64,000 bases of DNA from Advenella kashmirensis W13003 (GTDB lineage Bacteria; Pseudomonadota; Gammaproteobacteria; Burkholderiales; Burkholderiaceae_B): contig NZ_KI650983.1 in the NCBI RefSeq assembly GCF_000506985.1, positions 186,001 to 250,000 on the forward strand, read 5' to 3'. The notes below the pieces were generated by a model. That model was given only the letters and a program-made list of their open reading frames with translations, was not told where the DNA came from and searched no databases. Within the stretch, counting starts at the first letter, position 1. Each line of letters starts with the position of its first letter. Of this stretch, positions 49,686 through 62,381 are shown piece by piece. The position numbers were made by a program, and so were the translations under genes.

Positions 49686-50018
49686 GAATGGCACCTGAGT
49701 CAAGGTCGCAAAGAGGAAATCACCGGCGGGAGCCGGGGCATAGGCGACGTCCGAGTACTATTCTAGAAAAACCTATACATGATTGAAATTTAATAAAAAA
49801 TGAATTTAGATGCCTGATAGGCGACGAAGACGGATGTTAAAGCAATGAACAGTCTGGCAGCCTATACGACTTAATCTGTTTTATTTTGAAAATTTCATCA
49901 CGATTCGCCATTGCTCTTTGAGTGCAGCATCATATACTGTCCTTTTTGCCGCTATAGAGTCGGCTGCAAGATCGCCGTGCCCGTCAGAAAAACAGACCAC
50001 TATGTAAAACAGACCACC
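49686..50018. other. Divergent bioF/paiB intergenic region
   Basis: About 330 bp, AT-rich in parts (TTTAATAAAAAATGAATTT near 49789-49807). No gene, hairpin or recognised operator could be supported. Confidence 0.4.
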
Positions 50019-50675
50019 ATGTATAACCCGTCCTTTTTTCGCATCGCCGACCCTCGGCTGATTGCCGATCTGATCCGCAGCTATCCACTCGGACTGTTGA
50101 TTTCACTCGGGCCCGATGGCGTACAGGCCAGTCCACTACCCTTTTTGTTTTTCCCCGACGAAGGCGAACACGGCGTGCTGCGAGCCCACCTCGCGCGAGC
50201 AAATCCGCATTGGTCATTGTTCGCCCAGGACCCATCCTGTCTGCTCGTATTTCAGGGTGAACAAGGCTATATTTCGCCTTCCTGGTATCCGGGCAAAGCG
50301 ACAACGCATCGGGTGGTACCCACCTGGAATTACGCCATGGTACAAATACGCGGCACGGTTCGCACAACCGACGACCCTGCCTGGCTGCACAGCCAGATCA
50401 GCGCCCTGACCCGTCAGCAGGAAAGCGGCATGCCGTCTCCATGGCAGGTGTCCGACGCGCCACCGGAATTTATCGAACAGCAAAAACGTGCCATCGTCGG
50501 GCTGGAGATCACCATCACGCACATCGAAGGCAAATGGAAAATGAGCCAGAATCGCAACGCCGCCGACCAGGCTGGCGTGATTGACGGCTTGCGCAATACC
50601 CAGGCGACGGAGGGCAGCCAGGCACTGGCAGACACGATGAGCCGGATATTAAAAAAAACGGATCTTGCACAATAA
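50019..50675 (+). CDS. PaiB family FMN-binding transcriptional regulator
   Basis: 218 residues from ATG 50019 (MYNPSFFRIADPRLIADLIRSYPLG). The split-barrel FMN-binding fold has QGYISPSWYPGKATTHRVVPTWNY and a C-terminal KMSQNRNAADQAGVIDGL. PaiB-like proteins repress sporulation and degradative genes in Bacillus; the function in proteobacteria is less clear. Confidence 0.85.
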   Translation: MYNPSFFRIADPRLIADLIRSYPLGLLISLGPDGVQASPLPFLFFPDEGEHGVLRAHLARANPHWSLFAQDPSCLLVFQGEQGYISPSWYPGKATTHRVVPTWNYAMVQIRGTVRTTDDPAWLHSQISALTRQQESGMPSPWQVSDAPPEFIEQQKRAIVGLEITITHIEGKWKMSQNRNAADQAGVIDGLRNTQATEGSQALADTMSRILKKTDLAQ

Positions 50676-50928: not shown

Positions 50929-51501
50929 ATGAAAGAAAAGAGCAAAACAGTCGCAAAAAACAGCGCAAAGACTCGTCTCCAACTGAATGAAGCCGCAATT
51001 GAACGTGCAAAGAAAAGTCTGGATGATGGCGCAGTCGTGGCAGAAGACAATCCATGGCGCGAAGATATTGTTCGACTTCTGAACGACGCTCTTGCCACGG
51101 AAATCGTCTGTATATTGCGCTACAAGCGCCATCACTTTACCGCAACAGGATTGGAATCGCCCGCTATCGCAGACGAATTCCTGGTTCACGCCAATGAAGA
51201 ATCTGCGCATGCCGATTCTATTGCCAAGCGCATCGTGCAACTGGGCGGAGAGCCGGATTTTTCTCCTGATACCCTGCTGGCGCGCAGCCATGCAGACTAC
51301 AACGATGACGCCGATCTGCACGAGATGATCAAGTCGAATCTGATCGCCGAGCGTGTAGCGATTGAATCCTATACGCAAATGATCGACCTCATTGGCGACA
51401 AGGACCCCACCACACGTCGTTTGTTGGAAAGCATTTTGAACGACGAAGAAGAGCACGCCGACGAACTGAGCGACTGGATGCGATCTGTCGTGACCAAATA
51501 A
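50929..51501 (+). CDS. Ferritin-like (bacterioferritin-type) iron storage/protection protein
   Basis: 190 residues from ATG 50929, preceded by AGGAG. A ferritin-like four-helix domain with metal ligands in NDALATEIVCILRYKRHH, HANEESAHADSIAKRI, NLIAERVAIESYTQMI and LNDEEEHADELSDW. The N-terminal ~35 residues are Lys/Ala/Ser-rich and could bind DNA in the manner of Dps (inference). A hairpin follows. Confidence 0.9.
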   Translation: MKEKSKTVAKNSAKTRLQLNEAAIERAKKSLDDGAVVAEDNPWREDIVRLLNDALATEIVCILRYKRHHFTATGLESPAIADEFLVHANEESAHADSIAKRIVQLGGEPDFSPDTLLARSHADYNDDADLHEMIKSNLIAERVAIESYTQMIDLIGDKDPTTRRLLESILNDEEEHADELSDWMRSVVTK

Positions 51502-51997: not shown

Positions 51998-52041
51998 TTG
52001 TCGCAGCGTAAAAATGTAGATAATATTGGCGCCAATATTAT
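51998..52041 (+). promoter_or_regulatory. Promoter and GntR/FCD operator of the hydrolase-dpp operon
   Basis: TTGTCG at 51998, 17-nt spacer, TAATAT at 52021. The -10 lies in a perfect 22-bp palindrome (52020-52041) with core AATATTGGCGCCAATATT. The same 18-bp core recurs at 57138 and, as variants, at 60007 and 60031. Operator on the -10 suggests repression. Confidence 0.72.
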
Positions 52042-52061
52042 TAACAAAATAAAGGAAGGAC

Positions 52062-52952
52062 ATGTCCGAGGGACAAAATCTTTCAGCCGATCATTTCGGC
52101 GCCGAACGCGCTCGAGCAATTTACGATATGGAAAACAGCACAATATTTGCGTCACGCAAAGACCCACGATTTTCCTACTGTACCTATGCACCCGCTCGAA
52201 AACATGCTGAAGGACAACAACCCGCACTTGTGGTCGTCATGCATGGAACAGGTCGGGCCTTTACCGAATACCGTGACGCGTTCGCCGATTTCGCGCATTG
52301 GAACAATTGCATCATTCTGTGTCCCCTCTTTCCCGCGGGCATCCTGGGGGACGGGAACCGTGACGGCTTCAAGCAACTTGTCGAAGACAACATACGCTAC
52401 GACCATATCCTGCTCGATATGGTTGAAGAAGTGGGCAATAAATTCGATTGTGATTTTCGTCGGTTCGCGCTCTTTGGCTATTCCGGGGGCGGACAGTTTG
52501 CCAACCGGTTCTGCCTGCTTCACCCGCAACGGTTATGGGCAGTCTCCATAGGCGCGCCAGGCTCAGTCACACTGCTGGATACCAATAGTGACTGGTGGAT
52601 CGGCGTGAAAGGCATGCAGGAAAAATTCGGCATCAGCCCTGATTTTGAGACTTTGAAAAAACTGCCTGTACATATGATTGTTGGCAAAGCCGATCTCGAA
52701 ACTTGGGAAATCACCCACAGGGAAGGTGGTAAATTCTATATGCCCGGGGCCAATAAGGCCGGTGCCACACGCCCTGAGCGAATTGCTACCTTGCGCAAAA
52801 GTTTTCAGGATGCCGGCGTGAAAGTGCATTTGGATCTAGTGGATAATGTGGCACACAATGGCCTGGCATGCGTTCGACAGGTCCAGGATTTCTTTGCAGA
52901 CGTATTGTTCAAGCTTCGTTTTGATCACAATTGTGAAATGGTCGATCGCTGA
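52062..52952 (+). CDS. Alpha/beta hydrolase
   Basis: 296 residues from ATG 52062, with a GGAAGGA site. Alpha/beta fold with PALVVVMHGTGRAFTEY (oxyanion hole), nucleophile Ser in FALFGYSGGGQFANR, Asp near DLETWE and His in DNVAHNGLA. No signal peptide: cytoplasmic. It resembles PHB-depolymerase/esterase-like hydrolases. First gene of the dpp operon, so it probably cleaves an ester, amide or lactone in the imported compound or one of its products (inference). Confidence 0.82.
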   Translation: MSEGQNLSADHFGAERARAIYDMENSTIFASRKDPRFSYCTYAPARKHAEGQQPALVVVMHGTGRAFTEYRDAFADFAHWNNCIILCPLFPAGILGDGNRDGFKQLVEDNIRYDHILLDMVEEVGNKFDCDFRRFALFGYSGGGQFANRFCLLHPQRLWAVSIGAPGSVTLLDTNSDWWIGVKGMQEKFGISPDFETLKKLPVHMIVGKADLETWEITHREGGKFYMPGANKAGATRPERIATLRKSFQDAGVKVHLDLVDNVAHNGLACVRQVQDFFADVLFKLRFDHNCEMVDR

Positions 52953-52972
52953 TCTGCACACCAGGAACTGTC

Positions 52973-53917
52973 ATGTTCAAATTTGTGTTGTCCCGTATTG
53001 CCATGGCCGTACCCACGCTGATTATTGTGGCAATTGCCGTATTCGTGCTGATCCGACTGATTCCGGGTGATCCTGCACAGTTGCTGCTGGGCGATATGGC
53101 TGACCCCACCAGCCTGGCCGACTTGCGTATCAGGCTCGGTCTGGATCGCAGCGTCTGGGAGCAGTTCATTATCTGGTTCGGCCACGTGCTGCAGGGCGAC
53201 CTGGGAATCTCAATCAATCAGAATGTTCCCGTTCTTGGACTGGTTTGGGAGCGATTCACAGTCAGCGCTCAAATCGTAATGATCGCCGTGTTGATCGCAA
53301 CCCTCATCGCGGTACCGGCAGGCATTATTGCCGCCTGGAAACAGAACCAGCCGATAGACCTGCTCTTAATTGGCCTGTCGACGCTGCTGGTTTCGATCCC
53401 GACGTTTTGGCTCGGACTCATTCTTCTGCTTTTCTTCGGACTTCAACTGGGGTGGCTGCCTGTGGTCGGATATGTATCGATCGCGACCGACTGGAAGGCG
53501 GGATTGTTATATCTGATGATGCCGATCATGACATTGTTTATACATGAAATCGGCGTCATCATCCGCATGTCCCGCGCCAGTGCACTTGAAGTGCTCAGGC
53601 TCGACTATGTCACCCATGCACGGGCCAAGGGCCTTTCGGAAAGCGCCGTTCTGACGCATCACGTTTTCAGGAACGCGTTTGGCCCTACCTGGACGCTGAT
53701 TGGACTGGTCCTGGGCAATCTGCTTGGCGGGATTGCAGTCGTCGAAACCGTATTTACTATTCCCGGACTCGGACGTTTGCTGGTCGACTCGATCTTCGCA
53801 CGAGACTATCCCGTTATCCAGGGATGCCTTCTCTTTGTCGCCGTCATCTACGTTCTGGTCAACCTGTTTGTAGATCTCTGTTATCCGATTTTCGATCCAA
53901 GAGTCACCGCCGAATGA
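52973..53917 (+). CDS. Dipeptide/oligopeptide ABC transporter permease (DppB type)
   Basis: 314 residues, six transmembrane helices. ABC-permease signature EVLRLDYVTHARAKGLSESAVLTHHVFRNAFGPTWTLIGL. 20 bp after the hydrolase gene, with AGGA before ATG. Forms the membrane channel with the DppC-like protein, whose gene overlaps by four bases. Confidence 0.93.
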   Translation: MFKFVLSRIAMAVPTLIIVAIAVFVLIRLIPGDPAQLLLGDMADPTSLADLRIRLGLDRSVWEQFIIWFGHVLQGDLGISINQNVPVLGLVWERFTVSAQIVMIAVLIATLIAVPAGIIAAWKQNQPIDLLLIGLSTLLVSIPTFWLGLILLLFFGLQLGWLPVVGYVSIATDWKAGLLYLMMPIMTLFIHEIGVIIRMSRASALEVLRLDYVTHARAKGLSESAVLTHHVFRNAFGPTWTLIGLVLGNLLGGIAVVETVFTIPGLGRLLVDSIFARDYPVIQGCLLFVAVIYVLVNLFVDLCYPIFDPRVTAE

Positions 53918-54735
53918 AGACAAAAATTCCATTGAATGCGTTACTGGGCGGCCTTATCATCAGCACCCTGCTCATCGTAGCCATAATCGGGCTTTTCTGG
54001 ACACCGTTTGATCCTCTGAAAATCAATTTCGCCAGCAGACTGCATGCACCAGACGCTCAGTTCTGGCTTGGCACTGACGAATTCGGGCGAGACGAGCTGT
54101 CCAGATTGATCACCGCAGCAGGAACCAGCGTGTGGATCAGCCTGCTGACAGTTTCTTTTGCGCTGACGGGTGGCACCTGTCTCGGACTGCTTACAGGCTA
54201 TTTGCGAGGCTGGACGGATCGTATCATCATGGCGTTAAACAACGCCTTGCTCGCATTTCCGGGACTCTTGCTGGCACTGGGCCTGCTGGCGATATTCGGT
54301 GCGAACAAATACGGCATTATTCTCGCATTGGGGTTGGCTTATATCCCGTCGGTCACCCGGATTGTGCGGGGCACCGTGCTTTCCCTCAGGGAACGCGAGT
54401 TCATCGAGTCGTCACGGGTCTTGGGAAATTCGGAATGCTACACCATGCTGCGTCATGTCCTGCCCAATTGCCTGGCACCCATCACCATCATGGCAACTGC
54501 AATGTTCGGCTGGGTCATTCTTGCCGAAAGCGCACTGTCATTTCTTGGACTGGGCGTGCCCCCACCTGCGCCGACATGGGGCAATATGCTCGCCTCGGCT
54601 CGCCCTTATATTGATTCAGCGACGTGGCTGACTCTGTTTCCCGGCCTGTGCATTGCCCTGACTTTACTCGGTATCAACCTGTTGGGCGATGCCATAAGGG
54701 ATCGTCTGGATCCACGCATGCGAGGTGTACGATGA
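53914..54735 (+). CDS. Dipeptide/oligopeptide ABC transporter permease (DppC type)
   Basis: 273 residues from ATG 53914, which overlaps the DppB-like stop (ATGA). Transmembrane N-terminus (LLGGLIISTLLIVAIIGLFW), periplasmic HAPDAQFWLGTDEFGRDELSRLI, and cytoplasmic loop EFIESSRVLGNSECYTMLRHVLPNCLAP coupling to the ATPase. Confidence 0.93.
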   Translation: MKTKIPLNALLGGLIISTLLIVAIIGLFWTPFDPLKINFASRLHAPDAQFWLGTDEFGRDELSRLITAAGTSVWISLLTVSFALTGGTCLGLLTGYLRGWTDRIIMALNNALLAFPGLLLALGLLAIFGANKYGIILALGLAYIPSVTRIVRGTVLSLREREFIESSRVLGNSECYTMLRHVLPNCLAPITIMATAMFGWVILAESALSFLGLGVPPPAPTWGNMLASARPYIDSATWLTLFPGLCIALTLLGINLLGDAIRDRLDPRMRGVR

Positions 54736-56375
54736 CAGCTCAATTGGTTTCCGTATCGAACCTGTCCCTGAGCGTAGGCCACGGTGGCAGATCAATCGTT
54801 AACAATATTTCATTTGATATTGCCCCAGGGGAAATGGTCGGCATTGTCGGTGAGTCCGGTAGCGGCAAGACCCAGGCAGCCCGTGCCATTCTGGGATTGA
54901 CGCCGCCGCCTCTGGTGCGTGCGGCAGGCACAATCTACTTTGAAGGCCAGGATCTGACCACACTACCCGCGGCACGGCTGCGAACCCTGCGCGGCGCACG
55001 AATCGGCATGGTATTCCAGGAACCGATGACCTCCCTGAACCCGTCCATGACGGTGGGGAAGCAGCTCAATGAAGGGCTCGCACTGCACCGGCGCAAGCTT
55101 GGCAGTGCGGAACGTCGCAGCCGGATACTCACTATGCTGGAACGTGTAGGCATTCAAAATCCTGATGCTGCCATGCGGGCATGGCCTCACGAATTCTCAG
55201 GCGGGATGCGCCAGCGCATCATGCTGGCCTCAGTGATGCTGCTCGAACCGGCGCTTCTGATTGCCGACGAACCGACCACCGCGCTGGACGCCGTCATACA
55301 ACGGGATGTGCTCGAATTGATGACATCCATGACACGCGAACATAACACGGCAGTTCTGATGATCAGCCACGACCTGCCAATGGTTGCACGATACACGGAA
55401 CGAATCATCGTCATGCAGCACGGCAATGTGGTTGAGACGGGCTCCACAGAAACCCTGCTGGCAAGACCCGAACATCCGTACACGCAAAAACTGCTGGCAG
55501 CCATTCCTCATCGCACACCCGCACGCACACAGTCTGCCGCCAGCCCGCTGGTTCAGGTCAACGATCTGATCATTGATTATCCAGGTAAAGGCAGCCTCTT
55601 TTCTCGTGGCCAGGCAAAGCGTGCGCTCAAGGGCATCAGCCTTGCAATCCATCCTGGTGAAGTCGTCGCGGTAGTAGGCGGTTCCGGTTCTGGGAAAACA
55701 ACGCTTGGTCGGGCAATTGCAGGCCTGCTGCGTCCCACCTCGGGCCAGATTCAGTTTGATGGAAAGCCCATAGACAAATCCGATGCTGCCTGGAACCATT
55801 ACCGCCTGAACTGCCAAATGGTCTTCCAGGATCCATACTCTTCCCTAAATCCTCGCATGACTGTCGGGCAACTGGTCGGAGAGGGGCTGAGGCATGTTCC
55901 TGAGATGAGTACGCAGGAGACACGGGAACGTGTAAGCACCGTTCTGGATGAAGTCGGCCTCGACAGACTCTTTGCCGAGCGTTATCCTCACGAACTGTCT
56001 GGCGGCCAGCGACAAAGAGTGGCGATTGCCAGAGCGGTTGTTCGGCGCCCCTCTTTCATTATTGCCGACGAACCCGTCTCTGCTCTTGATGTTACCGTAC
56101 GGGCCCAGGTACTCGCTTTATTCGCGCAATTGCAGAGCAAGTATGGTTTTTCATGTCTCTTCATCAGTCATGATCTGGGCGTAGTCGAACAGGTGGCCGA
56201 TCGCGTAATCGTCATGCACCAGGGTGATATTCTTGAACAGGGAACACGAGACGCTATTTTTGACACTCCGGCACACGAATACACCCGAAAGCTATTATCG
56301 GCCATTCCTGCTCTGGAAGTGACAGAACAAGGCGGCGTTAAACTAAAATGGCGTTTTGCACGGCAGACTATGTAA
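54732..56375 (+). CDS. Fused DppD-DppF-type ABC ATPase
   Basis: 547 residues from ATG 54732, overlapping the DppC-like stop. Two ATP-binding cassettes in one chain: N-half with Walker A GESGSGKTQ (about 41-49), signature FSGGMRQRIMLA and Walker B LLIADEPTTALD; C-half with Walker A GGSGSGKTT, signature ELSGGQRQRVAIARAV and Walker B FIIADEPVSALDV. DppD and DppF are often separate; fusion is known in this transporter group. Powers import through the two permeases. Confidence 0.94.
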   Translation: MTAQLVSVSNLSLSVGHGGRSIVNNISFDIAPGEMVGIVGESGSGKTQAARAILGLTPPPLVRAAGTIYFEGQDLTTLPAARLRTLRGARIGMVFQEPMTSLNPSMTVGKQLNEGLALHRRKLGSAERRSRILTMLERVGIQNPDAAMRAWPHEFSGGMRQRIMLASVMLLEPALLIADEPTTALDAVIQRDVLELMTSMTREHNTAVLMISHDLPMVARYTERIIVMQHGNVVETGSTETLLARPEHPYTQKLLAAIPHRTPARTQSAASPLVQVNDLIIDYPGKGSLFSRGQAKRALKGISLAIHPGEVVAVVGGSGSGKTTLGRAIAGLLRPTSGQIQFDGKPIDKSDAAWNHYRLNCQMVFQDPYSSLNPRMTVGQLVGEGLRHVPEMSTQETRERVSTVLDEVGLDRLFAERYPHELSGGQRQRVAIARAVVRRPSFIIADEPVSALDVTVRAQVLALFAQLQSKYGFSCLFISHDLGVVEQVADRVIVMHQGDILEQGTRDAIFDTPAHEYTRKLLSAIPALEVTEQGGVKLKWRFARQTM

Positions 56376-56442
56376 ATACAGGTCTTGGCAAATCGCCAGC
56401 GAGACCAATAAAATGCCGCATCAGATCTTTATGGAGTCTTTC

Positions 56443-57066
56443 ATGTCGCAACGCCCTTCGTCTTCCACCCGCCTTGCAGATGATCTTGCATCCGACATTC
56501 ATAGCGGCAAGCTTGGACCAGGAAGCTGGCTCAAGCAAGTCGACATTCAGGAACGGTACGGGGCGACGCGACTGGATGTACGCAAGGCACTCGACCAATT
56601 GGTCATCAAGCGGCTGATAGAACACATTCCCAATCGGGGATACCACGTTCATGTGCCCGACCCTGTCAGGCTGGACGAAATTCGGGACGTACGGATATTA
56701 CTGGAGTGTGGTGCACTTGAAGATGTTATCAAACATATCACTGCCAAACAGCTCAAGCATATCGAAGACCTCGCCCGAAAATTTGACATGCTTACGTCAA
56801 CCGGTACGTTGCTTGAACAATATGCCGCCAACCAGGCATTTCATCAGGCCGTATATGCGCTGTGCAAAAATCGAGAACTGGTGCGTCTGATCCACGACAT
56901 CAAGGCTGGCACACCGGCTGCGCCCACGACGCAATGGGTGAATCACGCCCGTGTCCAGCAATCGGCAAAAGAGCACTTCGATCTGGTCGCGGCATTGCGC
57001 GAACGTGACCTGAAGCAGGCTCAAGCAGTCGTAAGACAGCACATTCAGCAATCAGAAGGAACCTGA
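56443..57066 (+). CDS. GntR/FCD-type regulator of the peptide-uptake operon
   Basis: 207 residues from ATG 56443, with GGAG seven bases before. Winged HTH (about 5-70; DDLASDIHSGKLGPGSWLKQVDIQERYGATRLDVRKALDQL) and a C-terminal FCD-type helical ligand domain (LDEIRDVRILLECGAL, NQAFHQAVYALCKN, EHFDLVAALRERDLKQAQAVV). Last gene of the operon; most likely represses it and the two other promoters that share the operator until a substrate or product binds. Confidence 0.9.
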   Translation: MSQRPSSSTRLADDLASDIHSGKLGPGSWLKQVDIQERYGATRLDVRKALDQLVIKRLIEHIPNRGYHVHVPDPVRLDEIRDVRILLECGALEDVIKHITAKQLKHIEDLARKFDMLTSTGTLLEQYAANQAFHQAVYALCKNRELVRLIHDIKAGTPAAPTTQWVNHARVQQSAKEHFDLVAALRERDLKQAQAVVRQHIQQSEGT

Positions 57067-57137
57067 CCACCCTGACGGCCTTTCCGTAAGGGTAACTACG
57101 GGGTGACGGACTCAACAGACTGCGGCAAAATCTAGCA

Positions 57138-57171
57138 AATATTGGCGCCAATATTATTGTTAAAATAATTA
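57138..57171 (+). promoter_or_regulatory. Operator and promoter of the binding-protein gene
   Basis: Perfect 18-bp copy AATATTGGCGCCAATATT at 57138-57155; within it TTGGCG (57143) serves as -35 with TAATTA (57166) 17 nt on as -10. Confidence 0.68.
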
Positions 57172-57190
57172 ACTATTCAAGGAATATCCC

Positions 57191-58735
57191 GTGAACATAT
57201 CCCCGTCCCTGCGCTTGACTCCTGTGGTGGCCGCACTACTTCTCGCACTACCTGCAACCGCCCTGGCAAAACCCATTGTCGTCGCACAACCGGCGGATAT
57301 CCGCTCGACCAATCCGGGAGTCAACCGCGATAACACAACAGATGGTGTCATTTTGAATGTCGTGGAAGGATTGGTGGGCTACAAGGCCAACGGTAGCGTA
57401 GGTCCTCTTCTGGCAAAAAAAATCGACATTTCACAGGACGGCCTGACTTACACATTCACATTGCGGGATAACGTCAAATTTCATAACGGGAAACCCATGA
57501 CATCTGCCGACGTGCTATGGAGCTGGAACCGTTACATGGACCCCAAAACCGGCTGGCGCTGTCTTGGTGAATTCGATGGCCGCAATGGCCTGAAAGTGAC
57601 CGAAGTCAGCGCGCCGGACGCGAAAACATTTGTGATGAAAACGGACAAGGCTTCGGCTGTATTCCTGGATACCCTGGCCCGTACCGACTGTGCCGGCGCC
57701 GCAGTCATACACCGCGATTCTGTCAAAGCGGACGGATCTTGGGACAAACCGATAGGCACGGGGCCTTACATGTTTGACTCGTGGAAAAGAAGCCAGTATG
57801 TCACGCTCAAAAAATTCGCCGGCTATGTCTCCCCTCCGGGCGAGAAAGCCGATGGCTATCTGGGTAAAAAAGTGCCTGTCAATGACGAAGTGAAATTTCT
57901 TGTTGTACCCGATCCATCCACAGCCAGGGCAGGCCTGCAATCGGGCGCCATCGATGCCTCCCAGATCACTTTCTCAGACTACCAGGAACTCAAGAACAAT
58001 ACCGATGTCGCCATCATTCTGCCTCAGGAAGCAAGCAAACACTCCCTGTTGATGCAAACACGTGATCCGGTATTGAAAAACAAAAAATTGCGCCAGGCCA
58101 TTGCTGCTTCGCTGGATATCCCACAAATTGTCATGGCCGCGAGCGAAAACCTTGTCAAGGATGCAAACAATTCTGCTATCCCTGCGACATCGGCATTCTA
58201 CGATGAAGTCCAGAAAAAAGGATATCATTACGATCCCGAGAAAGCCCGCAAATTACTGGCAGAATCGGGCTACAAAGGCGAGAAAATTGTAATCTACGCC
58301 AACAAGCGAGCCCATGTGCCAAGCTACCAGGTTGCAGTGATGGCCCAGGCCATGATGCAGGCGGCGGGCATCAACGCTCAAATCGAAGTACTGGAGTGGG
58401 CCACTCAGCTGGATCGATATAATCGCGGTAACTATCAGATGAGCTCATTCACCTATTCTGCACGCATGGATCCGTCTTTGAGCTACGAACAGTTTTCTGG
58501 CGATAAAGATAAACAATCGCGCAAGGTTTGGGATAATCCGGAAGCAGAAAAACTGATCAGCGCCAGCTTTGACGAATTCGACGATAAAAAACGCCAGCAG
58601 ATTTTTGATCAGCTTCATGAAAAAATGCTTGATGACACCCCACTCATTATTCTATTTAACGGCGCTACCGCCTGGGGATATCGCAAGAATCTGAAAGGCT
58701 TCAGCGTATGGGAAGGCAAGCCGCTTATGTGGTAA
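57191..58735 (+). CDS. Family-5 extracellular solute-binding protein (peptide type)
   Basis: 514 residues from GTG 57191, supported by AAGGA. Signal peptide of 26 residues ending in ATALA. SBP_bac_5 fold: LRDNVKFHNGKPMTSADVLWSWNRYMDP is the hallmark, and DNNSAIPATSAF-like and LLAESGYKGEKIVIYAN segments follow. Captures the substrate in the periplasm for the dpp-type importer. It has its own operator-bearing promoter downstream of the gntR gene, perhaps for extra copies of this protein. Confidence 0.94.
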   Translation: MNISPSLRLTPVVAALLLALPATALAKPIVVAQPADIRSTNPGVNRDNTTDGVILNVVEGLVGYKANGSVGPLLAKKIDISQDGLTYTFTLRDNVKFHNGKPMTSADVLWSWNRYMDPKTGWRCLGEFDGRNGLKVTEVSAPDAKTFVMKTDKASAVFLDTLARTDCAGAAVIHRDSVKADGSWDKPIGTGPYMFDSWKRSQYVTLKKFAGYVSPPGEKADGYLGKKVPVNDEVKFLVVPDPSTARAGLQSGAIDASQITFSDYQELKNNTDVAIILPQEASKHSLLMQTRDPVLKNKKLRQAIAASLDIPQIVMAASENLVKDANNSAIPATSAFYDEVQKKGYHYDPEKARKLLAESGYKGEKIVIYANKRAHVPSYQVAVMAQAMMQAAGINAQIEVLEWATQLDRYNRGNYQMSSFTYSARMDPSLSYEQFSGDKDKQSRKVWDNPEAEKLISASFDEFDDKKRQQIFDQLHEKMLDDTPLIILFNGATAWGYRKNLKGFSVWEGKPLMW

Positions 58736-58741
58736 AGGCAT

Positions 58742-58758
58742 GGGCAGGTACCCTGCCC
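58742..58758. terminator. Hairpin between convergent genes
   Basis: GGGCAGG-TAC-CCTGCCC, a perfect 7-bp stem without a long T-run, in the 57-bp gap between two convergent genes. Confidence 0.45.
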
Positions 58759-58792
58759 GACTCATTTCCCCCAAGGTTCTTTTCACTTGCAA

Positions 58793-59932
58793 TTATTGCC
58801 CCGCCTCCAGAACCACAGGTTCCTCTGTGAGGCTATAGCGTGTAAATACGCTGTTTAAGGCCGGCAACGGGGCTGCATCCATCACCCCAAGCGCCGGCTC
58901 CATCGCGATCATGGCGACCGTTGCCGACAAATTGTCATGGCTGCCCGGTCTCGGCGGACGGCACACTGAATACGGGGTACCAAAATCGTCGAACAGTGCA
59001 CGTTTTAAATCATTCAGATTCAGTTTTTCCTGTTCATTCAGCAGCCGGCGCACGCGCCAATCACGATAGGAACTCTCCGGAGTACTGGCGCGCCCCGTGT
59101 CCAGCAATTTGCAGAGTGCCACCGGATTGACCCAGTGATTGGCATGCACGATCAAATGATCCTCTCCTGGATAAATAGGAAACGATTCATTGGTTGTACA
59201 TTCAAAATCAATACCGAATCCCTGTGCCATGCCAAGCATGATATTGTTTGAACAAGATTTGGGCGTTGTCGCCACTGCTTTGAGTGCGAGCGCGAAGTGT
59301 TGCTGCTCAAGTACCTTGCGCCGAATCAGCGATAAGGGCGTACCCATTTGCCCAAAATCCCGATCAGACTCCAGATAATTGGCTGTAATGGAAACACCGG
59401 CGCTATTGAGGCCACTGCGTGCAAGCCCACCCGCTTCCACAAAAGTCAGAATATCAGGCCCCTCATCGCTGCGAATACGCAGCACGATAGCGGTATCCAC
59501 GCACTCGGCACGCCAATCCCAATTCTGGGCATGCAACAGATTGCCACTTTTTGACCGCTCCGGCAGGATCAGCGCGCCGGTGCATCCATCATCGGGCTCC
59601 AGCTCTACTGCCCGGTTCTTTTCAGCGCGGGCTCGTGCCAATACTTCGGTGCGGGCATTGATCATGACAACATCTTCGAACGGTACGTCCGCCCCTTCAG
59701 CGATCCCGCGCATTTCATCCAGATAGTGCGCCGCAAATTCCTCAATGGCCGGCACAAAGCTGTTGATCAACGCCAGCCTCTGGCTTTCGCTGAATCCCAG
59801 GTCAACCAAGGTCTGACCATACAGTTTCATACTGAGCCGCACGCGCTCCCTGGCCTGCTGCCCGTACTGAACACCGCGCTCGAATGGTCGACCAGCGACC
59901 GAAATAAAAGGAAACTGCTCAATGGTAGGCAT
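58793..59932 (-). CDS. C45-family acyltransferase/amidohydrolase (isopenicillin-N-acyltransferase-like)
   Basis: 379 residues from ATG 59932 (MPTIEQFPFISVAGRPFERGVQYG). Ntn hydrolase of the acyl-CoA:6-aminopenicillanate acyltransferase fold. Hallmarks: INARTEVL (about 91-98), the autoprocessing site DDGCTG with predicted nucleophile Cys117 released after Gly116, and HAQNWDW (about 134-140). Other members hydrolyse or transfer acyl groups on N-acyl amino acids, carcinine or beta-alanyl amines. No signal peptide, so the reaction is cytoplasmic. Its promoter carries two copies of the same operator as the transporter, which ties it to the imported substrate. Confidence 0.9.
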   Translation of the reverse strand: MPTIEQFPFISVAGRPFERGVQYGQQARERVRLSMKLYGQTLVDLGFSESQRLALINSFVPAIEEFAAHYLDEMRGIAEGADVPFEDVVMINARTEVLARARAEKNRAVELEPDDGCTGALILPERSKSGNLLHAQNWDWRAECVDTAIVLRIRSDEGPDILTFVEAGGLARSGLNSAGVSITANYLESDRDFGQMGTPLSLIRRKVLEQQHFALALKAVATTPKSCSNNIMLGMAQGFGIDFECTTNESFPIYPGEDHLIVHANHWVNPVALCKLLDTGRASTPESSYRDWRVRRLLNEQEKLNLNDLKRALFDDFGTPYSVCRPPRPGSHDNLSATVAMIAMEPALGVMDAAPLPALNSVFTRYSLTEEPVVLEAGQ

Positions 59933-60006
59933 CGTATCTATCCGTGAGAAAAGTGCTGCGTGGCGGCACCCATTCACAGACGCAAAGCAGCAATATATCA
60001 ATTTAG

Positions 60007-60048
60007 AATATGGGCGCTATTATTGTAGAATATTTTGGCGCCAATTTA
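60007..60048 (-). promoter_or_regulatory. Tandem GntR/FCD operators and promoter of the C45 gene
   Basis: On the minus strand TTGGCG (60044-60039), 16 nt, TAATAG (60022-60017). One operator variant with core TTGGCGCCAA lies at 60031-60048 over the -35. A second, matching the 18-bp consensus at 15 positions, lies at 60007-60024 over the -10. Centres are 24 bp apart. Confidence 0.62.
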
Positions 60049-60100: not shown

Positions 60101-60562
60101 TCAGGTTACTTTTTCACTGAGTACTTTCTTCATTCGATTGAAATCGCGACGGTACTTCCTGGCCAGTTGTGTCTTTTGTGTATCTGTCAAAATCTTGCCC
60201 GAGGCCTGGAAGAATTTCTTTTCTTCCTCGCGAAGATGATGATGCACTTTTTTGGACAACGCCTTGGCCTGCGCCAGCCAGCCCGGAGAATTGGACGGTT
60301 CCGATTGCAGGTCTTCCAGCATTTCCTCGATTTCGTGATGTTCTGCCAGCGCGTGTCGTGACGGAGAAAGGCCGTTGTCGTCCATCAGAATGGGCGCATA
60401 CAGAAAGCGCTCTTCGGCCGCCGCATGGGCTTCCAGTTCTACGAACAGGTCCTTGAAAATATCGTCCCTGCTGCCCGTACCCGGTTTGGTACGAAGCAGC
60501 CTCTTACAGAGGCTGCGCTGCACGTCATGGCTCTCCCGCAAAGCATCATAAATCGTTTCCAT
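60101..60562 (-). CDS. Hemerythrin HHE domain protein
   Basis: 153 residues. Four helices with iron-binding pattern SHDVQRSL, LEAHAAAEERFLYAPIL, LAEHHEIEEMLEDL and KVHHHLREEEKKFF: the His/Glu spacing of a non-heme diiron bundle. Likely binds O2, NO or iron. A strong positive tail follows. Regulation not seen. Confidence 0.9.
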   Translation of the reverse strand: METIYDALRESHDVQRSLCKRLLRTKPGTGSRDDIFKDLFVELEAHAAAEERFLYAPILMDDNGLSPSRHALAEHHEIEEMLEDLQSEPSNSPGWLAQAKALSKKVHHHLREEEKKFFQASGKILTDTQKTQLARKYRRDFNRMKKVLSEKVT

Positions 60563-60846: not shown

Positions 60847-60924
60847 GCGCCCGTAGCTCAGTTGGATTAGAGTACTTGGCTACGAACCAAGGGGTCGTGG
60901 GTTCAAATCCTGCCGGGCGCGCCA
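60847..60924 (+). tRNA. tRNA-Arg (anticodon ACG)
   Basis: Acceptor stem GCGCCCG/CGGGCGC, anticodon stem-loop TTGGCTACGAACCAA (ACG), T arm GTGGGTTCAAATCCTGC, and encoded CCA. Its 3' end is the probable attachment site of the integrated element. Confidence 0.95.
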
Positions 60925-60932
60925 TTTTACTT

Positions 60933-60958
60933 AAGGTCTCCAAGCGGAGGCCTTTTGT
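60933..60958 (+). terminator. Terminator after tRNA-Arg
   Basis: Stem AAGGTCTCC/GGAGGCCTT with one wobble and loop AAGC, then T-rich sequence. Confidence 0.7.
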
Positions 60959-61029
60959 TTTTGCACTATTGAATCGGGTTTGCACTATTGAAATGTGAAA
61001 AAATACTCGACTATAGCCCTTATCAAACT

Positions 61030-62154
61030 CTACGCCACTCCTTTCAGAGGGCCAACGCGCTCTGGTTTGCGCCGGTAAATCTTATTCGTAGTCCGAGCAT
61101 CAGCATGCGATAACAGTGCTCTGGCATGCTCAAGTGTGATGGCATCGGAAGCACATTTTGCACGCATATCGTGCTCAGTGAATCGTTGGATCACCTTGGT
61201 TTCCGTTAGTACTCTTTCCATAAAGCGCTGCCACATACTGTCCCAGCCGTCGGTGTTGCCTGTTTCCTCGTCAATGTAGCCTCTTCCGTACTTATTGCAG
61301 AACAACATTGGAGACAATACCGGCCGCACGAACTTGGCCTGCTCAACAGCGGCTTTTAATTCCGGCGTCCATTCATAAATGGTTCGCTTGCCAGATGAGT
61401 TTTCAGTCTTGTGCCGTTGGATGTGTATGCCGTCGTCCTTAATATGCTCATTCAGCCGCAGGCGCAGCAAATCAGATCTGGCCATACCGGTCATTAATTT
61501 GATTCGCATATATGCCTGTATTGCCAACACGCTACCCTTTTTGCGTTGCGATGGCAGCGAGAGTGCTTCAATGATTTCCCAGTCCTCGATATAACGATCA
61601 CGCGACAGCTCTCCTCGTAGCCTCACTTCACCCTTAAAAGGATGGCGATCCAAGTACCCCCACTCTACCGCTTTGGTAAATGCGTGGGATAGCACCTCAA
61701 TTTCCCGATGTGCCGCAACCCGTCCGCCGGTGACTTTGCGTTTTTCCATACCAGTGATCTCATCTTTGACAACAGTCGTTTTCTTTTTGCTCCGAGCATC
61801 AACGTAGCGATAAACAAGCCGAGGCTTCATTCCGGTTATTGGTAATTTACCGAAGACACCACGCAACTGTCGTACCCAGATACGTTGTTGTTCGTGCGTA
61901 CTGACTGCTTTTGTCGGGACCACCTCCAATAAATATCGGTCTAATAGATTGTCGATGGATCGCACTTCGATATTATGTTCTAATCTGGCCGCCCAGACTT
62001 TGTAGGCTTCCGACAAGGCAGTGCCGAGACGAAACATTTTCTTTCCGTCCCAAAGCGTTTCGAGTCCCGGCGGAACCTGATAATAGTACGCCCCATGATT
62101 CAAGCGCCATCTACTCGGCAACCCTCTATTTTCTGCATTTCGCTTGCGTCCCAT
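61030..62154 (-). CDS. Tyrosine recombinase/phage integrase
   Basis: 374 residues from ATG 62154, which overlaps the DUF4224 stop by one base (TAATG). The N-terminal arm-binding region and core domain precede the catalytic fold: Arg in LMTGMARSDLLRLR, the His-x-x-Arg box FTEHDMRAKC, His in ALLSHADARTTN and nucleophile Tyr in NKIYRR. Site-specific recombination at the nearby tRNA-Arg is the expected reaction. Confidence 0.95.
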   Translation of the reverse strand: MGRKRNAENRGLPSRWRLNHGAYYYQVPPGLETLWDGKKMFRLGTALSEAYKVWAARLEHNIEVRSIDNLLDRYLLEVVPTKAVSTHEQQRIWVRQLRGVFGKLPITGMKPRLVYRYVDARSKKKTTVVKDEITGMEKRKVTGGRVAAHREIEVLSHAFTKAVEWGYLDRHPFKGEVRLRGELSRDRYIEDWEIIEALSLPSQRKKGSVLAIQAYMRIKLMTGMARSDLLRLRLNEHIKDDGIHIQRHKTENSSGKRTIYEWTPELKAAVEQAKFVRPVLSPMLFCNKYGRGYIDEETGNTDGWDSMWQRFMERVLTETKVIQRFTEHDMRAKCASDAITLEHARALLSHADARTTNKIYRRKPERVGPLKGVA

Positions 62155-62381
62155 TAGACGGCGTCCCAATCAGGTTCGATTTCCTTTTCATCAGAATTCA
62201 TAACCCTATCGCCGGCACCAAAAGCAAAGTGAATATGGGCGCGCAACACCGCTACCGACCCATCTGGACGAACCCTGTGTTCAATTCCCATGAATCTTAA
62301 TGCTCGCACTTGGGCGTCATGCCGAGTACGGTCAGTCAAGCTGATCAGCTCTGATGTCCTTAAAAATGTAGTTTCTGACAT
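62154..62381 (-). CDS. DUF4224-like small phage protein
   Basis: 75 residues. TFLRTSELISLTDRTRHDAQVRALRFMGIEHRVRPDGSVAV matches the DUF4224 pattern common beside integrases, possibly an excision-related DNA-binding protein. Coupled with the integrase by TAATG. Confidence 0.8.
   Translation of the reverse strand: MSETTFLRTSELISLTDRTRHDAQVRALRFMGIEHRVRPDGSVAVLRAHIHFAFGAGDRVMNSDEKEIEPDWDAV

Follow-up and report, generated by a model that had tools for sequence, protein, structure and literature searches.

A putative GntR/FCD-governed regulon of a peptide-type importer and two candidate amide hydrolases in Advenella kashmirensis W13003

In Caulobacter, the VanR regulator acts on the vanillate genes through the operator ATTGGATCCAAT. 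Atu1419 of Agrobacterium fabrum is reported to bind short palindromes near promoters and to act as a repressor, and its residues Arg86, Asn137, His141, His192 and His214 hold zinc and citrate (PMC7797058). Among hydrolases, PahZ1 is reported to cut beta-amide bonds (PMC4456602). In this study, we analyzed a stretch of 64,000 nucleotides from Advenella kashmirensis W13003 (contig NZ_KI650983.1, positions 186,001 to 250,000), referred to below as the window. It carries a block of seven genes. Four of them encode the parts of an importer (a family-5 binding protein, two Dpp-type permeases and a fused double ATPase), two encode enzymes (an alpha/beta hydrolase and a C45 protein), and one encodes a regulator of the GntR/FCD type. 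From the computed linkage of regulator, palindromic site and genes, and from the conservation of that linkage, we consider it highly probable that the block is one regulon. Its features are as follows.

52022 to 52039, no strand: putative operator of the abH-dppB-dppC-dppDF-gntR unit (core TTGGCGCCAA at 52026-52035, about 31 bp 5' of the abH start)
52062 to 52952, plus strand: alpha/beta hydrolase abH (no Pfam family)
52973 to 53917, plus strand: DppB-like permease (PF00528, PF19300)
53914 to 54735, plus strand: DppC-like permease (PF00528)
54732 to 56375, plus strand: fused two-domain ATP-binding cassette (ABC) ATPase of the DppD-DppF type (two ABC_tran stretches, oligo_HPY; NF008453 507 bits, cut-off 408)
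56443 to 57066, plus strand: GntR/FCD regulator (PF00392 41.3 bits, cut-off 27; PF07729 82.7 bits, cut-off 24.3)
57138 to 57155, no strand: putative operator of the binding-protein gene (core at 57142-57151, about 44 bp 5' of the start)
57191 to 58735, plus strand: family-5 solute-binding protein with a GTG start (PF00496, SBP_bac_5, 285.3 bits)
58793 to 59932, minus strand: C45 autoproteolytic acyltransferase/hydrolase (NF040521 286.5 bits, cut-off 85)
60031 to 60048, no strand: putative operator of the C45 gene (core at 60035-60044, about 107 bp 5' of the start)

The 18-mer AATATTGGCGCCAATATT occurs exactly at 52022-52039 and 57138-57155, as an earlier interpretation of the letters of this DNA (the sequence-only reading) had claimed, and the 4.85 Mb genome holds no other exact copy. 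When up to three mismatches were allowed, the window gave four matches, against a mean of 0.04 and a maximum of 1 in 100 shuffles. We also scored the window with a matrix of 84 sites of relatives (55 distinct), from which the window's own loci, duplicate loci and three non-promoter sites (L036, L098, L104) were left out; the core columns of this matrix were fixed by site picking and only the flanks were free. The three operators took ranks 1 to 3 in the window at 30.7 bits (52022-52039), 30.1 bits (57138-57155) and 28.0 bits (60031-60048), and the next-best score was 10.7 bits. Relatives likewise carry a site at the abH promoter. At the third operator the ten-base core TTGGCGCCAA is kept, and the same core lies upstream of C45 in 28 of the 29 family loci other than the window's own, with TTGGTGCCAA in the 29th. 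Of the two variant sites that had been proposed in front of the C45 gene, the one at 60031-60048 is thus upheld by its score and conserved core, whereas 60007-60024 was rejected: it is without the TTGG..CCAA core and reached rank 12 with 3.6 bits. A wider regulon of exact cores was also rejected, as two of the three exact ATTGGYRCCAAT places in the genome fall within the block and the third lies inside an open reading frame, presumably that of a tricarboxylate-type binding protein.

A regulator search of genome contigs gave 46 loci, and with the strict TTGGCGCCAA core a site was found in 30 of them. After the centre variants CA, TG and TA had been noticed, the core was allowed to read TTGG-YR-CCAA, and the survey covered 84 loci (L007-L060 and L091-L120; 1.604 Mb) chosen by protein similarity and not by the site. 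Three of these, L093, L100 and L101, duplicate L007, L009 and L008 and are counted within the 84. In this material, 72 of 75 occurrences of TTGGYRCCAA fall within promoter regions amounting to 90.9 kb. Where the regulator is at least 35% identical to ours, 56 of 58 loci show the site at a promoter. It is absent from L049 and from L013, and in the latter the contig stops short of C45. Among the remaining 26 loci, five have a promoter site, namely L050 and four C45 loci whose regulator lies elsewhere (L095, L098, L099, L104). Two later loci, L131 and L132, also have the site before abH. The sequence-only reading had joined the three transcription units into one GntR/FCD-linked regulon and had named conservation of the site beside these genes in advance as a test. 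That conservation was borne out, with unlinked C45 genes included, and a lack of conservation did not occur.

In four family genomes, C45 and a second binding protein lie far from the regulator operon, either on other contigs (G081, G084) or more than 1 Mb away on one contig (G080, G104), and in all four the site is kept both at C45 and at the two promoters of the regulator locus. In Corticimicrobacter, the same centre change is present in all three sites. Co-occurrence was counted in 268 family genomes with thresholds of at least 637 bits for C45 and at least 214 bits for the regulator. C45 was found in 46 genomes and the regulator in 47, so that every C45 genome has the regulator (46/46) and the reverse holds in 46/47, G101 having the regulator alone; the other 221 genomes have neither at these thresholds.

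The whole module is shared as well. All seven genes are present in 20 of the 46 regulator loci, which come from Alcaligenaceae, Pseudomonas and alphaproteobacteria, thus from beta-, gamma- and alphaproteobacteria, in at least three gene orders; the 5.3 kb contig of L013 has five of the seven. In other loci the cargo changes. An M20 peptidase like that beside the Rhizobium etli regulator is found in 16 of the 46, 12 of which also have an M28 peptidase, and polar-amino-acid-type ABC genes are present in the four M20-type plasmid loci inspected. A HyuA/HyuB pair is found in six of the 46, and one of these, in Bosea (L041), also encodes an M20 enzyme, a pair of permeases and a binding protein of family 5. 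L049, L050 and L052 form the remote remainder. In the regulator tree, from which L093, L100, L101 and L104 were left out, the deep order is unsafe owing to very long branches (L103, L050).

The regulator itself resembles proteins with a metal-assisted ligand. Both its GntR and FCD domains score above the Pfam cut-offs, and an alignment of 16 regulators shows no variation at R84, N130, H134, H178 or H200, so that the metal-binding Asn/Asp and three His are present. These five residues correspond to the Atu1419 residues named above, with two of the four spacings equal, and we infer that the ligand is a metal-assisted carboxylate.

The transcription of the block was considered from its layout. 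By the ends of the reading frames, a gap of 20 bp separates abH from dppB, dppC shares 4 bp with dppB before it and 4 bp with dppDF after it, and gntR follows 67 bp further on. A separate transcript of gntR could start from a 10/12 promoter-like match at 56385-56414; the stretch holds 11 promoter-like matches against 7.4 in shuffles. In the sequence-only reading, each of the three units had its site lying over a -35 or -10 box. This finds weak support: the consensus scan gave a forward 9/12 match at 57142-57169 that overlaps the binding-protein operator, the sole site so covered, whereas no forward match passed at the hydrolase promoter and none on the C45 strand.

The gene families that had been assigned to the block were confirmed by profile matches (GntR and FCD, SBP_bac_5, two BPD_transp_1 proteins, the fused double ATPase and C45), and the SBP_bac_5, BPD_transp_1 and oligo_HPY domains are those of a peptide/nickel-type ABC importer. 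The binding protein has an apparent signal peptide by eye, and none is visible in abH or the C45 protein. The closest solved sequence to the binding protein is AgaA (6hlx, E 9.3e-37), and no hint of its ligand came from aligning it with proteins of solved structure. In abH, the catalytic residues Ser141, Asp211 and His265 are intact and invariant in 17 sequences, and the predicted model (mean predicted local distance difference test, pLDDT, 87.1) has poly(aspartic acid) hydrolase-1 (PahZ1) as its closest solved fold (6ve6, E 2.0e-17); a short-chain polyhydroxyalkanoate depolymerase is not indicated, with 32.7 of 150 bits for NF050058. In the C45 protein, Gly116-Cys117, the predicted point of autocleavage, is intact and invariant in 16 sequences and aligned to the cleavage point of 2x1d. 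Its model (pLDDT 81.2) has isopenicillin N acyltransferase as the closest solved fold (2x1c, E 1.9e-24) and the closest solved sequence (2x1c/2x1d, E 3.7e-18). PF03417 (AAT) did not match the window's C45 at E 0.001, and the orthologue in L092 scored 43.8 bits (cut-off 23.2).

Across the regulator clade, the cargo combines an importer with amide-cleaving enzymes of unrelated folds, and elsewhere the regulator-site pair joins other importers to M20/M28 peptidases or to caprolactamase-like HyuAB. We regard it as likely that the substrate is an amide-linked, peptide-like compound, as a class. That it yields an omega-amino acid (beta-alanine, gamma-aminobutyric acid (GABA) or a longer one) is a tentative proposal, somewhat short of even odds. 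It has indirect support from an aminotransferase at least 55% identical to a Tistrella probe, which is found in 10 of the 58 C45 loci (55 without duplicates). Eight of these ten were scanned and all eight exceed the AptA cut-off (L114 and L120 were outside the scan), as does the aminotransferase of L042, a locus without C45. In one Chelatococcus and two Microvirga plasmids (L111, L131, L132), a stretch of at most 19 kb holds the regulator of the operator type together with abH, the importer, C45 and AptA. The AptA-type omega-aminotransferases there score 615-628 bits against a cut-off of 500, and an aldehyde dehydrogenase gene is also present. The genome of A. kashmirensis W13003 has its only AptA above the cut-off outside the window, on contig C2 (705.7 bits). 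The C45 clusters L058, L114 and L137 contain an M20 enzyme that shares 64-77% identity with that of the rhizobial regulator loci, which ties the rhizobial and C45 contexts together. Omega-amino amides are the leading but unproven substrate class, with N-acyl or gamma-glutamyl amides as a close rival.

In the mechanism that we propose, the GntR/FCD protein, probably dimeric, would bind the dyad ATTGGYRCCAAT at three promoters, those of the C45 gene, of the gene for the binding protein and of abH-dppBC-dppDF-gntR, and would repress all three units, its own gene included; the positions of the sites and the habit of the family suggest repression. A small carboxylate, either substrate or product, would bind in the metal-containing FCD pocket and lead to derepression. 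The binding protein and the Dpp-like importer would take in the amide-linked, peptide-like compound, and the C45 N-terminal nucleophile (Ntn) hydrolase and the PahZ1-like serine hydrolase would cleave it in the cytoplasm. An omega-amino acid product would then pass to an omega-aminotransferase whose gene lies in another part of the genome. We give this local, substrate-inducible catabolic regulon for amide uptake and cleavage, with its omega-amino product, a probability of roughly 0.6.

Several points tell against it. Many of the surveyed loci are closely related to one another, and three of them repeat contigs already counted, so that the counts are not independent trials. L049, with a 36% identical regulator, is siteless, and L050, with 26%, has a site; in L137 and L138, a stray TTGGCGCCAA lies away from the block. 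With one mismatch, the 12-mer core occurs at 81 places in the genome against 15 for the reversed pattern, and a survey of 398 genomes found this core in 279, with about two copies per genome, so that it is uninformative by itself. On the side of the substrate, no AptA-type omega-aminotransferase is among the seven genes of the block, the dehydrogenases next to the AptA-type genes elsewhere are below the succinate-semialdehyde dehydrogenase (SSADH) cut-off, and 48 of the 58 C45 loci have no AptA-type aminotransferase of at least 55% identity in the stretch searched.

The last of these points also favors the best-surviving alternative, in which the regulon is the same and the substrate is an N-acyl-alpha-amino acid, a gamma-glutamyl amide or a short modified peptide. 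In that case the omega-aminotransferases would serve only pathways that are paralogous or lie nearby. M20 amidohydrolases and gamma-glutamyltransferase act on amides of the N-acyl-amino acid, gamma-glutamyl or peptide type; the former (TIGR01891) are present in regulator-site loci, and the latter accompanies the same hydrolase family in L056, L060 and L138. However, the close packing of AptA with the regulon genes in L111, L131 and L132 speaks for the omega-amino product, as does the fact that the closest models of the Bosea HyuAB are caprolactamase subunits, though below the cut-off. We consider this alternative a possibility of real weight, less probable than the omega-amino regulon.

A second alternative is that another regulator binds the palindrome and the GntR/FCD protein is a bystander, and the window genome does have 24 GntR-like matches, along with a 12-mer core that recurs in unrelated genomes. 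Against this, the site follows the regulator orthologue across differing cargo and is absent from all 11 C45 clusters whose GntR is only 23-34% identical. In addition, a related block is present in L105 and L106, which come from two other species of the window's genus. Its regulator is 34% identical to ours, and there another palindrome, TTATGCGCATAA, occupies the same place between gntR and abH. These comparisons of genomes indicate that the site tracks the regulator, not the cargo, and a bystander role is improbable.

The least probable alternative is that the unit serves to destroy, and not to feed on, a bioactive amide such as a beta-lactam, an N-acylhomoserine lactone or a comparable compound: the C45 fold is common to isopenicillin N acyltransferase and, more remotely, to penicillin V acylase and acid ceramidase/NAAA, but a dedicated high-affinity importer would be opposite to the need of detoxification, and the annotated regions inspected held catabolic genes and no resistance or signalling gene. 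The sequence-only reading had suggested an acylated, peptide-like, possibly beta-lactam-like or beta-alanyl molecule. The peptide-like amide class is supported by the protein families, and a beta-alanyl or other omega-amino amide indirectly by the 10 C45 loci with an aminotransferase, whereas the beta-lactam part is one of several chemistries of the C45 fold and no neighbour gene was seen pointing there.

With regard to the history of the block, nine other genomes of the window's genus gave no regulator at E 1e-40, which suggests that the block was gained by transfer or repeatedly lost. At 60847-62169 of the window, a tRNA-Arg (anticodon acg) is followed by an opposite-strand integrase-like reading frame (PF00589 23.7 bits, below the cut-off of 27.1), and this stretch beside the C45 gene is a possible island edge. 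A conjugative Klebsiella plasmid (L057, 7243-15071) carries the complete seven-gene block and the site. The block is flanked by a ferritin-like protein (50929-51501) and a hemerythrin-domain protein (60101-60562). An FMN_bind_2 protein lies nearby (49911-50675). A C45 cluster of Tistrella likewise has a gene close to it that is annotated as an FMN-binding negative regulator (L059, 7024-7374), possibly by chance. Two C45 genes per cluster occur in L109 (8171-13096) and L113 (9001-17325). In Bosea, an octopine/nopaline-dehydrogenase-type gene (PF02317) follows gntR (L041, 10639-11706). In L050, at 9927, TTGGCGCCAA lies about 40 bp upstream of the 26% identical Halomonas GntR, beside a reading frame that reads like a TonB receptor.

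To our knowledge, the natural substrate is known for few of the C45 enzymes of bacteria. For an importer and two substrate-orphan hydrolases, the locus offers a testable pair of regulator and operator within a delimited module of seven genes that also has natural unlinked copies, and an inducer from one species would transfer to relatives, including the rhizobial and Bosea loci with other enzymes. A description of the block was not found in the open-licence literature among the matches listed; there, the sole occurrence of the site string in bacterial degradation was a primer, and C45 with an ABC transporter had a passing mention. A broader view, which we hold to be rather unlikely, is that a catabolic system not described before has spread horizontally and serves the use of omega-amino-acid amides, such as conjugates of beta-alanine or GABA or those derived from lactams. 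In this system, one GntR/FCD lineage and its operator would govern alpha-, beta- and gammaproteobacteria while the hydrolase folds (C45 Ntn, M20/M28 metallopeptidase, caprolactamase-like HyuAB) and the importer are exchanged. If true, the regulator ligand would be the shared product and the regulator a ready-made sensor.

Compared with known systems, the TTGG-NN-CCAA spacing of the site is equal to that of the Caulobacter VanR operator, whereas the centre differs, and ATTGGATCCAAT was found in the literature in vanillate constructs only. The importer is like the Dpp/Opp/Nik-type importers with family-5 binding proteins in all its component families. However, the binding protein and permeases are below every NCBIfam equivalog cut-off listed, and the DppABCDF scores were 118 of 1005 (DppA), 221 of 590 (DppB) and 198 of 483 bits (DppC). 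abH is a serine hydrolase like PahZ1 (6ve6, 9o7u), its closest solved fold, from which it differs in having about 20-22% identity in the structural alignment and no visible signal peptide. The C45 protein has the Gly-Cys point in common with isopenicillin N acyltransferase at about 23% identity, but the latter serves fungal penicillin biosynthesis and the former stands in a bacterial importer regulon. The caprolactam pathway of Pseudomonas jessenii is reported to lead to omega-amino products (PMC6061476), and the Bosea HyuAB is closest to its CapA/CapB, though below the cut-offs (630 and 273 of 1000 bits); the window block has no such genes. Atu1419, of the VanR group, has the same GntR and FCD domains and the same Arg/Asn/three-His metal/citrate pocket as our regulator, and is reported to differ in its palindrome ATGTATACAT, its hydroxycinnamic acid breakdown genes and its tetrameric state (PMC7797058). 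In kind, the block belongs with the catabolic regulons that pair an importer with hydrolases under a GntR/FCD protein, and this kind is already known; what is unusual is that the regulator-site pair is constant while the enzymes are exchanged.

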